In this document: positions 30,458 through 47,345 of the stretch, in pieces | How the letters are laid out: the number at the start of each line of letters is the position of its first letter | Position numbering within the stretch: position 1 is the first letter of the stretch | Virus record (IMG/VR): IMGVR_UViG_3300049596_000773 | Location: 1 to 51,359 of that record | Reading direction: 5' to 3' (one strand) | DNA from: a virus | DNA: 51,359 nucleotides | Made by a program: the position numbers and the translations under genes | The notes under the pieces: generated by a model | Databases searched by the model: none | The model's input: the letters and a program-made list of their open reading frames with translations, nothing else | What the model was told of the DNA's origin: nothing

Positions 30458-30759
30458 CCGACGACCTGTTCACTCTCGCAGCCCGCTACCCGTCCGCGCC
30501 GGGACACCGCGACACGGACACCAGCCGCGAGGCCGCGAAGGACATGGCCAGCCGCGTCACAGGGCTGCGCTTGGCGGTCCTTGGCGCGCTGGCGCAGGAC
30601 CGGACAGCGGACGAGTGCGCCGCCGTGCTTGGCGAGTCTGTGCTCGCTGTCAGGCCGCGTACTACGGAGCTAAAGCGGCTCGGCCTTATCACCGACACGG
30701 GCGAGCGCCGGCCAAACGCGAGCGGGAAACGGGCGATTGTTTGGAGGCTGACCCTATGA
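30454..30759 (+). CDS. Winged-helix-like DNA-binding protein
   Basis: The 101-aa product has the pattern of a small phage HTH protein: HRDTDTSREAAKDM, then LRLAVLGALAQDRTADECAA, a recognition-helix-like RPRTTELKRLGLI, and a wing ending RRPNASGKRAIVWRL. It probably binds DNA as a regulator of early genes. Its last 48 bases recur exactly at 32068, where a remnant copy lies. It overlaps the PAPS-reductase-like gene by ATGA. Confidence 0.65.
   Translation: MTDDLFTLAARYPSAPGHRDTDTSREAAKDMASRVTGLRLAVLGALAQDRTADECAAVLGESVLAVRPRTTELKRLGLITDTGERRPNASGKRAIVWRLTL
30700..30747 (+). repeat. 48-bp direct repeat, copy 1
   Basis: The 48 bases are identical to 32068-32115. They encode the wing and C-terminus (GERRPNASGKRAIVWR) of the winged-helix protein. 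Confidence 0.9.
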
Positions 30760-31712
30760 CAACCACTGAACGAACCGAATACGACGCCCTGTGCCTGCTC
30801 TGGCACGCTACGGAACCAATGACGGCGGCGCAGACCGCTCGAATGGACGAGCTGCACGCGATGACATTAAAAGCACCGCCAGTTTATCCACTTTCGGCTG
30901 AGCCAATTCACATAATCAGCCTTGGCGCAGGCGTGCAAAGCAGCACGATGGCGCTGATGGCCGCGCGCGGCGAGATTACGCCAATGCCGTCTTGTGCGAT
31001 CTTTGCCGATACGCAGGCGGAGCCGCAGAGCGTTTATCGCTGGCTTGACTGGCTGGAAAAGCAACTGCCGTTTCCAGTGCATCGGGTGACGGCTGGAGAC
31101 TTGGCTGAAACCTCAACGCGGGTGAGGGAATCGTCCAGAACGGAAGGAGCAAAATACCTTTCCCACCTTGTTCCTGCCTTCACTCTTTCCGCCACTGGCG
31201 AGCGCGGCACTTGGTTTCGGCAATGCACGGATAAGCACAAATTGACCCCGTTACGCAAGGCGATTGACCGCGAACGCGGAACGTCCCAGGCAATAGTTTG
31301 GATTGGAATTTCAAGTGATGAGGCGAGCCGAATGAAGCCAAGCAGAATCGCCGGAATCAGCCACATTTTCCCGCTGATTGACGGGGCGAAAACTTTCAGC
31401 CGCCGTCAATGTCTGGCGTGGATGCAGGAACGCGGTTTTCCGACGCCGCCGCGTTCAAGCTGCTCATTTTGCCCCTACCATTCAGACAACGAATGGCGGA
31501 GGTTGCGCGACACCGAGCCGGAGGCGTTCGCGGCGGCAGTCGTCTATGAAATGCGGATGCAGGAGGCGGCGGAAAAGATAGACCGTCTTGACTCAGTTCC
31601 ATACCTGCATAATTCGCGGGTGCCTTTGTTGGACGTTGATTTCTCCACCGATGAAGACCACGGCCAGCAAGTCATGTTTCAAAACGAGTGCGAGGGAATG
31701 TGTGGAGTATGA
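30756..31712 (+). CDS. PAPS-reductase-like adenine-nucleotide hydrolase-fold protein
   Basis: The 318-aa protein has the PP-loop fold. SLGAGVQSSTMALMAA near 52-67 is the P-loop-like start, IFADTQAEPQSVYRWLDWLE near 83-102 is the second landmark, and SCSFCPYHSDNEWR near 238 supplies two cysteines. It resembles phage proteins annotated as phosphoadenosine phosphosulfate reductase or DndC-like. Possible jobs are sulfur transfer to nucleic acid, nucleotide activation or sulfur supply. ATG 30756 overlaps the previous stop; the longer frame from 30615 is read-through. Confidence 0.75.
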   Translation: MTTTERTEYDALCLLWHATEPMTAAQTARMDELHAMTLKAPPVYPLSAEPIHIISLGAGVQSSTMALMAARGEITPMPSCAIFADTQAEPQSVYRWLDWLEKQLPFPVHRVTAGDLAETSTRVRESSRTEGAKYLSHLVPAFTLSATGERGTWFRQCTDKHKLTPLRKAIDRERGTSQAIVWIGISSDEASRMKPSRIAGISHIFPLIDGAKTFSRRQCLAWMQERGFPTPPRSSCSFCPYHSDNEWRRLRDTEPEAFAAAVVYEMRMQEAAEKIDRLDSVPYLHNSRVPLLDVDFSTDEDHGQQVMFQNECEGMCGV

Positions 31713-44076: not shown

Positions 44077-44220
44077 ATGAAGAAATTCACTGCCAGTATC
44101 AACACCCGCGTCACTCCGGCGACGCGGGATAACCTCAAGAAAAAAGCGCAACAGCGCAAAATCCGCCTGACCGACATCGCCCGCGAAGCTTTGGAGGAAA
44201 AGGCAAAATCTGACCTATGA
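44077..44220 (+). CDS. Ribbon-helix-helix regulator-like protein
   Basis: This 47-aa protein reads KFTASINTRVTPATRDNLKK, then KIRLTDIAREALEEKAK, the strand-helix-helix pattern of the CopG/Arc family. It follows a promoter whose spacer is a palindrome and overlaps the next gene by ATGA. It probably controls its own operon, including the conserved protein at 44217 and the structured array behind it. Confidence 0.7.
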   Translation: MKKFTASINTRVTPATRDNLKKKAQQRKIRLTDIAREALEEKAKSDL

Positions 44221-44825
44221 AATCCATCACTACAACGTGGACGGGCATCCGTCCGCTCATCATGTCGAATCCGCAGACCGTGGAAATCGCCAATCCGTTC
44301 GCGGTCAATTCGCGGCGAATCAACAACCTCCTGAAAGCCGCGCGCAAGAAGGGCGACGAAAACCGCATGGCGGAACTTGCCGACGAACAAAAGCGCGGCG
44401 ATTGGGAGGCAAGTGCCTATTGGGACACGAAAGAAAAACGCTTCTTCATTCCTGACACCTGCCTTCTAGCTTGCATCCGCAACGGAGCGGCGGCGGCAAA
44501 GAAGGGCAAGGACATCGACCGCGCCGTGATTATCACGGAAACGGAGGCGATCATCGAAACGGAAATCAAGCACAACAGCCTCGACGCCTACTATGCTGAT
44601 GACGCCTTCCGGCTGGAGTGCCCGGCAAAGGTTCCGCCCAAGACCGGCGCGCTGATATGGAAAGTGCGCTGCATGATGCCGACTGGATGGAAACTCAGCT
44701 TTGGCATCGAGTTTGACGAGAATATCGTCGCCGAGAAGTCGCTCCGCGAGGCGCTGGAATTGGCTGGGCGTCTCAGCGGAATCGGCGGATGGCGTCCCAA
44801 GTTTGGACGATTTTTAGTGAGCTAG
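44217..44825 (+). CDS. Conserved phage protein with GxGxWRPxxGRF ending (RAMP-like fold suspected)
   Basis: The 202-aa product belongs to a phage family I recognise by an N-terminal WTGIRPLIMSNP (PLLMHN-like) and a C-terminal GIGGWRPKFGRFLVS, with FIPDTCLLACIRNGAAAAKK between. The Gly-rich ending and domain outline recall RAMP/Cas7-type RNA-binding folds, but this is an impression and no such function is proven. It sits directly before the array of four structured units and may be their partner. Regulation is probably by the RHH protein just upstream, with which it overlaps by ATGA. Confidence 0.5.
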   Translation: MKSITTTWTGIRPLIMSNPQTVEIANPFAVNSRRINNLLKAARKKGDENRMAELADEQKRGDWEASAYWDTKEKRFFIPDTCLLACIRNGAAAAKKGKDIDRAVIITETEAIIETEIKHNSLDAYYADDAFRLECPAKVPPKTGALIWKVRCMMPTGWKLSFGIEFDENIVAEKSLREALELAGRLSGIGGWRPKFGRFLVS

Positions 44826-44860
44826 GCGAGGTCGGGTTATGCGACGCCTTGCAATGACTG

Positions 44861-44903
44861 GCCGCACACACCGCGCACGGGAAACCGTGGGCGGCAGTGC
44901 GGC
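44861..44903 (+). repeat. Structured unit 1
   Basis: The outer stem is GCCGCAC/GTGCGGC (7 bp). The inner hairpin CCGCGCACGG-GAAA-CCGTGGGCGG has a GNRA tetraloop and one G-G mismatch. The internal loop is ACA/CA. Confidence 0.8.
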
Positions 44904-44951
44904 GTGTCATGGAACGGCATGGCGTGGTCAGGCGAAGCGAAGCGGTGACGG

Positions 44952-44990
44952 GTCCACACACCGCGCTCTTTCGGGAGCGCGGCAGTGGGC
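44952..44990 (+). repeat. Structured unit 2
   Basis: The outer stem is GTCCAC/GTGGGC. The inner hairpin CCGCGCTC / GAGCGCGG is closed by a TTTCGG loop. The internal loop is again ACA/CA. Confidence 0.8.
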
Positions 44991-45038
44991 GCGGCGCAGT
45001 GGCGCAAGGTGTTGCGTTGCAGCGCATGGCAGCGCGCG

Positions 45039-45079
45039 GCCTCTCACACCGCATCCGTTCGCGGGTGCGGCAGAGAGGC
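45039..45079 (+). repeat. Structured unit 3
   Basis: The outer stem is GCCTCTC/GAGAGGC. The inner hairpin CCGCATCCG-TTCG-CGGGTGCGG has nine pairs (one G-T) and a UUCG tetraloop. The internal loop is ACA/CA. Confidence 0.8.
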
Positions 45080-45131
45080 GCGGATTGGCGCTGCTAGGCT
45101 GGGCGACACATGGCATGCCCCGGCGCGGCGA

Positions 45132-45170
45132 GGCAAACACACAGCGGCTCACGGGCCGTTGCAGTTTGCC
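45132..45170 (+). repeat. Structured unit 4
   Basis: The outer stem is GGCAAAC/GTTTGCC. The inner hairpin CAGCGGC/GCCGTTG has one G-T pair and a 6-base loop. The internal loop is ACA/CA. The next bases (TTGCGCCAATGGGTTAGGCG) look like the right end of the attC-like sites elsewhere in this genome. Confidence 0.75.
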
Positions 45171-45221
45171 TTGCGCCAATGGGTTAGGCGATGCTGAGCC
45201 ATGACTGGCAATGCACAATCA

Positions 45222-45244
45222 CCCACCTGAGACGTGGGCAGTTT
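45222..45244 (+). terminator. Small hairpin before the next gene
   Basis: CCCAC-CTGAGAC-GTGGG (45222-45238) is followed by CAGTTTT and then the ATG at 45246. It may end the array RNA or regulate translation of the next gene. The stem is only five pairs. Confidence 0.4.
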
Positions 45245-45245
45245 T

Positions 45246-45713
45246 ATGACAACAGAACCAAACCAAGACAGTTCAGGCGATGCCGTCAGGCTTCCGCTCT
45301 GGAAAAACGCCCTCGACAAAATGCGCGCAACCGGCATCGGCTACGGGGAAGTATTCGACGCCAAGTTCTTCGAGGATGAACTCCGCACCAAACGCGACTC
45401 AATGCAGTTCGGACTCGGCATGTCGGCCATTCGCCGCGAACTGGAAAAGGACGGTTACTACATCACTGGACGCGGACAGAAGGGCAACCAGTTCGTGATC
45501 GTGCCGCCTGAGTCTAACGCTGACGTGATGGGTGGCTACGCCCGGCAGGCGCTAGATTCGCTGAGTCGAGGCTTCATCCTTGGAACCAGCACGCGACTGG
45601 ACACGCTCTCCAAGCGCGACCGCGACCGCCACGAATCGCTGCTGGCAAAAATGGCCACACGATTGGCGTTGCTGAAACTTCCAATTGGAGAAGCGAGAAA
45701 GTTGCTAAAATGA
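45246..45713 (+). CDS. Hypothetical protein downstream of the structured array
   Basis: The 155-aa protein has FEDELRTKRDSMQFGLGMSA, then IRRELEKDGYYITGRGQKGN and FVIVPP, a helix-rich start followed by a strand pair like a winged helix. The C-terminal half is a long helix pair (SKRDRDRHESLLAKMATRLA). I recognise no family by name. Its start lies just after the hairpin at 45222, so its translation could depend on the array RNA. An earlier ATG (45234) lies in the hairpin and is less likely. Confidence 0.6.
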   Translation: MTTEPNQDSSGDAVRLPLWKNALDKMRATGIGYGEVFDAKFFEDELRTKRDSMQFGLGMSAIRRELEKDGYYITGRGQKGNQFVIVPPESNADVMGGYARQALDSLSRGFILGTSTRLDTLSKRDRDRHESLLAKMATRLALLKLPIGEARKLLK

Positions 45714-46586: not shown

Positions 46587-47345
46587 TTATGGTCCGCTGG
46601 GGCCGGTAGGCCCCGTGGGTCCCGTGGGTCCCGTTGGCCCCGTGGGTCCGGTAGGTCCGGTAGGGCCAGTCGGCCCCGTTGGGCCGGTTGGGCCTGTCCC
46701 CGCCGTCCACGCCCAGTTCGGCACAAGCCCCCAGATCAACTCTCCGCCGGACGTGGCTTTCCGAGCCTTTTGCAGATGGGTGGTGGTAAGCTGGTCGATG
46801 CGAAGGCTTGTTTTCAGGTCCGGGAAATCGCCGGGATCAGGAAACGGCGCGTCCGGCATACCATTGACCGTGCTCTTTCCGGTCTGGCAGGCGCGAACGT
46901 AGGCAATGGGTTGTCGCCAGACGTTGCTTACCCCGGCGTTGTTCGTGAACATCGAGTTGCCCATTGTTGCGCTCGGTCCCCACGTAAGAGTTGGGCCTGC
47001 GGTGATTGCTCCGGCGAAGCTAAACGTCATCTCCAGCCACACCCAATCCCCGCTCGTCAGGGTCATCCGGTTGTCGATGTTGGCGATGGCGGCGGTCTGT
47101 GTCAGGTCGGCTTCATCGAGGAAAATCCATCCGCGCCGCACGTAGGCGTAAGCGGTCGTCTCGGCATTGGACGTGAAGCCCGCGCCATACACCTCGAACG
47201 GGTGGAGCTTGAGCAGCGCCGGGATGCGGGTGAGAGAATCGGGGTTGCGCCCAGGATATTCGGACGCGCCTCCGGCATCCGGCTCCGGCAGTCCGGCTGG
47301 AATGACTTCCCGGATACGGGCCAGCGTGGCGTCAAGTTCTTCCAT
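46587..47345 (-). CDS. Collagen-like tail fibre protein
   Basis: The 252-aa product has an N-terminal globular part (residues 1-205, including DDxD-poor, Trp-rich [17 protein letters not shown]) and a C-terminal run of about 14 GPT triplets from about residue 210 to the end. Collagen-like Gly-Pro-Thr repeats form trimeric rods in phage fibres. It is unusual that the repeat is at the very C-terminus with no head domain after it. At the DNA level the repeat can slip, so length variation between isolates is likely. It overlaps the structural gene upstream by one base. Confidence 0.8.

Follow-up and report, generated by a model that had tools for sequence, protein, structure and literature searches.

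A phage locus that very probably encodes a VIPR system with five vrRNAs, one of which matches Sak4-like genes of other phages

The DNA analyzed here (the window) comprises 51,359 nucleotides, positions 1 to 51,359 of IMG/VR virus record IMGVR_UViG_3300049596_000773. On its plus strand, an array of five units, each composed of a guide tract of tandem pentamers and a tail, lies between a gene for a 202-aa RAMP-like protein, vipr (44217–44825), and the next ORF (45246–45713). Guide tract 1 (44823–44862) has eight repeats, with variable dinucleotides (NN) TA GA CG TA GA CT AA CT, and the stop codon of vipr lies within its first repeat, TAGGC; tail 1 (44861–44903) has the form GCCGCAC-ACA-hairpin-CA-GTGCGGC, as seen both by folding and in the tail alignment. 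Tract 2 (44904–44953; 10 repeats, GT AT AC AT GT CA GA GA GG CG) and tract 3 (44991–45040; 10 repeats, GC GC GG AA GT GT AG AT AG GC) are followed by their tails (44952–44990 and 45039–45079, respectively). Tract 4 (45080–45134; 11 repeats, GC TT GC TA TG GA AT AT CC GC GA) precedes a tail (45133–45169) of the GCAAAC type, the commonest among relatives. Tract 5 (45170–45214; nine repeats, CT GC TG TA GA TG CA CT AA) ends in a terminal element (45215–45245) made of ACAATCA, a short hairpin (stem 45222–45238) and CAGTTTT, a form common to the relatives that makes up the tail of unit 5 and is possibly a terminator. Thirteen viral relatives, which were found via the upstream protein, carry the same kind of hairpin at the same place in varying number, with GGCNN tandem pentamers between many of them.

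The initial annotation of this DNA had described four bipartite hairpins with outer stems, ACA and CA loops and GAAA or TTCG tetraloops. All of these are present, with ACA starting at 44868, 44958, 45046, and 45139 and a spacing of 88–93 bases. Folding of a 461-nt region gave z = −6.1, with 0 of 100 shuffles equally stable. The annotation had also proposed that pairing is kept while the stem sequence changes and had named covariation with homologues as the test; both expectations were borne out in an alignment of 23 distinct tails taken from the window and its relatives, in which standard pairs fill 99.0% of pair cells against a shuffled mean of 75.5% (0/500) and the covariation score reaches 0.632, compared with 0.188 after shuffling. 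Sliding the partner columns by one to three positions leaves only 33–49% paired, changes occur on both sides in 10 of the 14 pairs of the outer and inner stems, and invariant C-G pairs flank the ACA and CA loops. A covarying two-stem tail follows tracts 1–4, and a short hairpin follows tract 5. Searches of Rfam at gathering and permissive thresholds with the window array and 16 array loci returned no credible family, and BLAST of the array against phages gave one weak match. The same GCAAAC-ACA/CA tail as in the window occurs beside a very divergent Vipr (locus L036) and a similar one (L059). In five relatives an extra ACA/CA tail stands far downstream of the main array, beyond the candidate accessory gene discussed below (L003:4433, L004:5831, L007:5621, L010:1542, and L013:5429); the window showed no tail at that place. 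At vipr loci L016, L024, L049, L081, and L057, the separators between GGCNN tracts are an ~55-nt hairpin, GTTCA, ACCGCAGGC, and AGGC, so the type of tail or separator differs by clade.

The 40–55 nt preceding each hairpin form a tandem pentamer tract of 8–11 repeats on the scaffold NN-GGY. In the window this scaffold is degenerate at its first G (27/48 repeats); repeat position 4 is G in 44 of 48 repeats, and position 5 is C or T in 42 of 48. Many tracts of the relatives consist purely of GGCNN, their NN being hypervariable. Over 438 tracts the scaffold reads G in 97%, G in 97%, and C/T in 99%, with NN variable; because these tracts were selected by their GGY scaffold, only the variability of NN is a free measurement. 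The NN composition of 396 guides best fits codon positions 1 and 2, with weights of 0.74 for the coding strand (bootstrap 5% bound, 0.70) and 0.23 for the opposite strand and other codon phases near zero; the simple correlation of NN composition with codon positions is moderate (0.60). A search of viral sequences with the DNA pattern (GGCNN)6GGC alone recovered at least 120 stretches, and among the matches listed a vipr homologue was present in 82 of 120 loci, compared with 2 of 120 control loci matched for total size, which were contigs fetched later with guide 1. The tracts were on the same strand as vipr in 80 of the 82 loci at a median distance of ~50 bp, some of them upstream of the gene. 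Very long NNGGY stretches of up to 140 repeats, with no visible tails, were seen at L023:6308–7008 and at L052; these are perhaps the overlapping “staggered” arrays of the preprint that describes VIPR (PMC13142463).

A profile of the upstream protein matches PDB 36pp, “SUSP1 Vipr protein,” over its full length (E = 2e-41). Its AlphaFold2 model, built from a 77-row alignment, has a pLDDT of 94, and the best Foldseek matches are Csm3/Cas7 subunits of CRISPR complexes; a structure prediction from the single sequence reached a pLDDT of only 39. The family phrog_4652 is matched by 77 of 77 aligned relatives and by the homologue of Felixounavirus wV8. Both the full-length sequence match and the Csm3/Cas7 fold therefore mark the protein as a RAMP homologue of the Vipr clade. 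Because it is a full-length homologue of PDB 36pp, the locus is identified as a VIPR system and its units as vrRNAs. Early TRAP-like and diversity-generating-retroelement interpretations of GGCNN were abandoned upon the identification of Vipr. A 47-aa ORF directly upstream of vipr (44077–44220) shows weak NikA-like similarity that stays below the Pfam cut-off.

VIPR (Viral Interference Programmable Repeat) was first described in 2026 as a phage weapon and is a newly proposed RNA-guided system, thought to be older than CRISPR (PMC13142463). As defined there, it comprises the RAMP protein Vipr and a vrRNA of 9–16 YNNGG repeats, in which GGY is constant and NN varies, ending in a structured 3′ tail; double-stranded DNA is read by the NN pairs, with a single base skipped between one pair and the next, usually the codon wobble position, and genes of competing phages or prophages are silenced upon binding (PMC13142463). 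The window locus fits this definition, with tracts of 8, 10, 10, 11, and 9 repeats, except that guide 1 falls one repeat short of the published range and GGY is relaxed to (G)GY; in the relatives GGCNN is canonical. Almost certainly, then, the locus is the VIPR system of an uncultivated phage, consisting of one Vipr and five vrRNAs, with guide 1 matching Sak4-like genes and with expression and silencing presumed. The initial annotation, which had seen a structured RNA matching no class familiar to it, was right that the RNA is structured and noncoding; the RNA also lies outside Rfam, but its class is a described one, as the units fit the vrRNAs reported in 2026. Likewise, its four-unit array holds for the four hairpins but overlooked the pentamer tracts, the half of each unit that carries more information, as well as the fifth tract and the terminal hairpin. 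Each hairpin forms the 3′ tail of a guide RNA, and the targeting information sits in the tracts between the hairpins.

What is already known here is the VIPR class; what is new is a member with a tail form absent from the preprint's main text (PMC13142463). The VIPR of Escherichia phage SUSP1 (PMC13142463; PDB 36pp) is likewise phage-borne, with a homologous Vipr, GGY/NN tracts that each end in a structured 3′ tail, and an array adjoining vipr and a second, small gene. However, the window Vipr is ~30% identical to that of SUSP1, as judged from Felixounavirus homologues; the SUSP1 tail as published is pseudoknotted, whereas each window tail is a hairpin of two stems with ACA/CA loops; and the published SUSP1 system targets a satellite, whereas guide 1 of the window fits a Sak4-like gene. 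Hammerhead-interspersed VIPR arrays (fig. S19 of the preprint) also alternate structured elements with guide tracts, but neither a hammerhead ribozyme between units nor any other Rfam family was matched in the window array and the 16 array loci. With class 1 CRISPR-Cas (Cas7/Csm3 plus crRNA) the locus shares the RAMP fold, repeating RNA units, and a guide with a structured handle. In contrast, its guide is noncontiguous, using two of every five RNA bases, its array has no unique spacers between identical repeats, and a scan of the neighboring genes found no recognized adaptation genes or other Cas subunits.

Among the five guides, guide 1 alone has a DNA match of the kind expected from the one-base skip. 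The published rule (PMC13142463), applied without adjustment to its eight repeats from TAG to the tail, yields TANGANCGNTANGANCTNAANCT, that is, the pattern TAxGAxCGxTAxGAxCTxAAxCT with 16 specified bases. Exact matches to this pattern number at least 120 in viral contigs, and all but one of the matches listed encode Y(D/E)RYELKL in frame 0 and in one protein context (YDRYELKL throughout, YERYELKL once), the base that is skipped being the wobble base of each codon. Since the wobble position is skipped, synonymous changes there leave the match intact. A sampled target protein belongs to AAA_24 (PF13479, 4e-50) and to the Sak4-like ssDNA annealing proteins of phrog_124 (9e-56); the family was assigned on this one member, the others being judged by shared sequence context. 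The window's own record, which may be a fragment, contains no guide 1 site at up to three mismatches and no detected AAA_24 homologue. These sequence data suggest that a Sak4-like gene is probably the natural target of guide 1. Sak4-bearing contigs L211 and L222 also encode a Vipr homologue.

The match could instead be a coincidence with a conserved motif, the real target of an otherwise genuine VIPR system being another. This is unlikely, even though guide 1 is the shortest of the five and guides 2–5 yield no target. When 1,000,000 guides of eight NN were sampled at random from the natural NN pool, not a single one hit as many as 10 of those contigs, and nearly all listed matches lie in the codon frame that the rule predicts. 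Moreover, the homologous guide 1 of relatives L005 and L007 keeps all NN pairs of the window while two scaffold bases have changed; for guide 2 the relatives show one NN change and one scaffold change, too few to test. At the corresponding place in relative L010 (array following L010:1–623), the guide reads AGxGAxATxATxGAxCTxAAxAT, and its near matches, with one or two mismatches, include SDMIELKL and NDMIELKL in DUF669 proteins of Sak4-bearing contigs. This is only suggestive of two phage clades directing their guides against two genes within a single recombination module. As for the other guides, exact patterns of guides 2–5 had no matches in viral contigs, and guide 4 had none in genomes. 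Guide 2 had two unrelated genome matches, in an HlyD-like protein of a Schwartzia genome and in a Curtobacterium gene; both were rejected as targets, their number being about that expected by chance. Guides 2 and 4 had no match with up to three mismatches in 50 Sak4-bearing records. When 396 guides were pooled against a small set of fetched loci, the one-base skip gave no excess over shuffled guides; this null result may be expected because the target set was so small, and it is still not supportive.

The array might, alternatively, act in cis as a structured leader or attenuator of the next gene (45246), the hairpins controlling its transcription or translation and the tracts serving as mere linkers. 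Its end does adjoin the downstream ATG, and the terminator-like hairpin with CAGTTTT stands before that gene. Against this, unit number varies among close relatives, whose arrays span 291–708 nt, NN is hypervariable within the tracts, and the tracts co-occur with vipr, in some cases upstream of it, making such a leader very improbable. That the array is a low-complexity artefact, or that the 121-aa open frame at 44839–45204 is a protein-coding gene, can be practically dismissed, since the frame has no Pfam or PHROG match, the array lengths of relatives differ by non-multiples of three, and the structure covaries; the initial annotation, too, had seen no credible protein gene here.

If the VIPR reading is correct and the published SUSP1 work can be transferred to this locus, the array would be transcribed and cut into vrRNAs of ~90 nt, and Vipr subunits would coat each tract via the GGY triplets, exposing the NN pairs. 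These would pair with double-stranded DNA as NNxNNxNN, and binding would silence the target gene. Guide 1 would read the YDRYELKL codons in the Sak4-like (AAA_24) annealing-protein genes of many phages. By this analysis, the most likely role would be the silencing of recombination genes of competing phages or prophages, the carrier record having no such site. A broader proposal, which we regard as reasonably likely, is that VIPR phages carry broad-spectrum guides that read the first two codon bases of a highly conserved recombination-module motif (Sak4, perhaps DUF669 in a sister clade), such that one vrRNA would fit that gene in very many phages without wobble escape, while the carrier would be spared by lacking the gene. 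The recovery of vipr by pattern alone and the decoding of one guide in codon phase to a conserved gene back the noncontiguous code with sequence data independent of the preprint. The locus also adds a strongly covarying tail form and points to a specific candidate target, the recombination gene of Sak4-like type in competing phages. Should this be confirmed, it would suggest that directing a guide against conserved codons can give it a broad reach.

The ORF downstream of the array (45246–45713, plus strand, 155 aa) is a candidate vap (Vipr-accessory) gene. It has no Pfam, PHROG, or NCBIfam match, consistent with the initial annotation, which had placed the array between a conserved phage protein, now identified as Vipr (phrog_4652), and a hypothetical one. 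It is conserved at the same position in the relatives, placed as a vap gene would be; comparison with the wV8 gene beside vipr gave no clear relation. Elsewhere, the window carries a phosphoadenosine phosphosulfate reductase-like gene (30615–31712; phrog_424) and, on the minus strand, an ORF (46587–47345) that ends C-terminally in a collagen-like run of GPT repeats.
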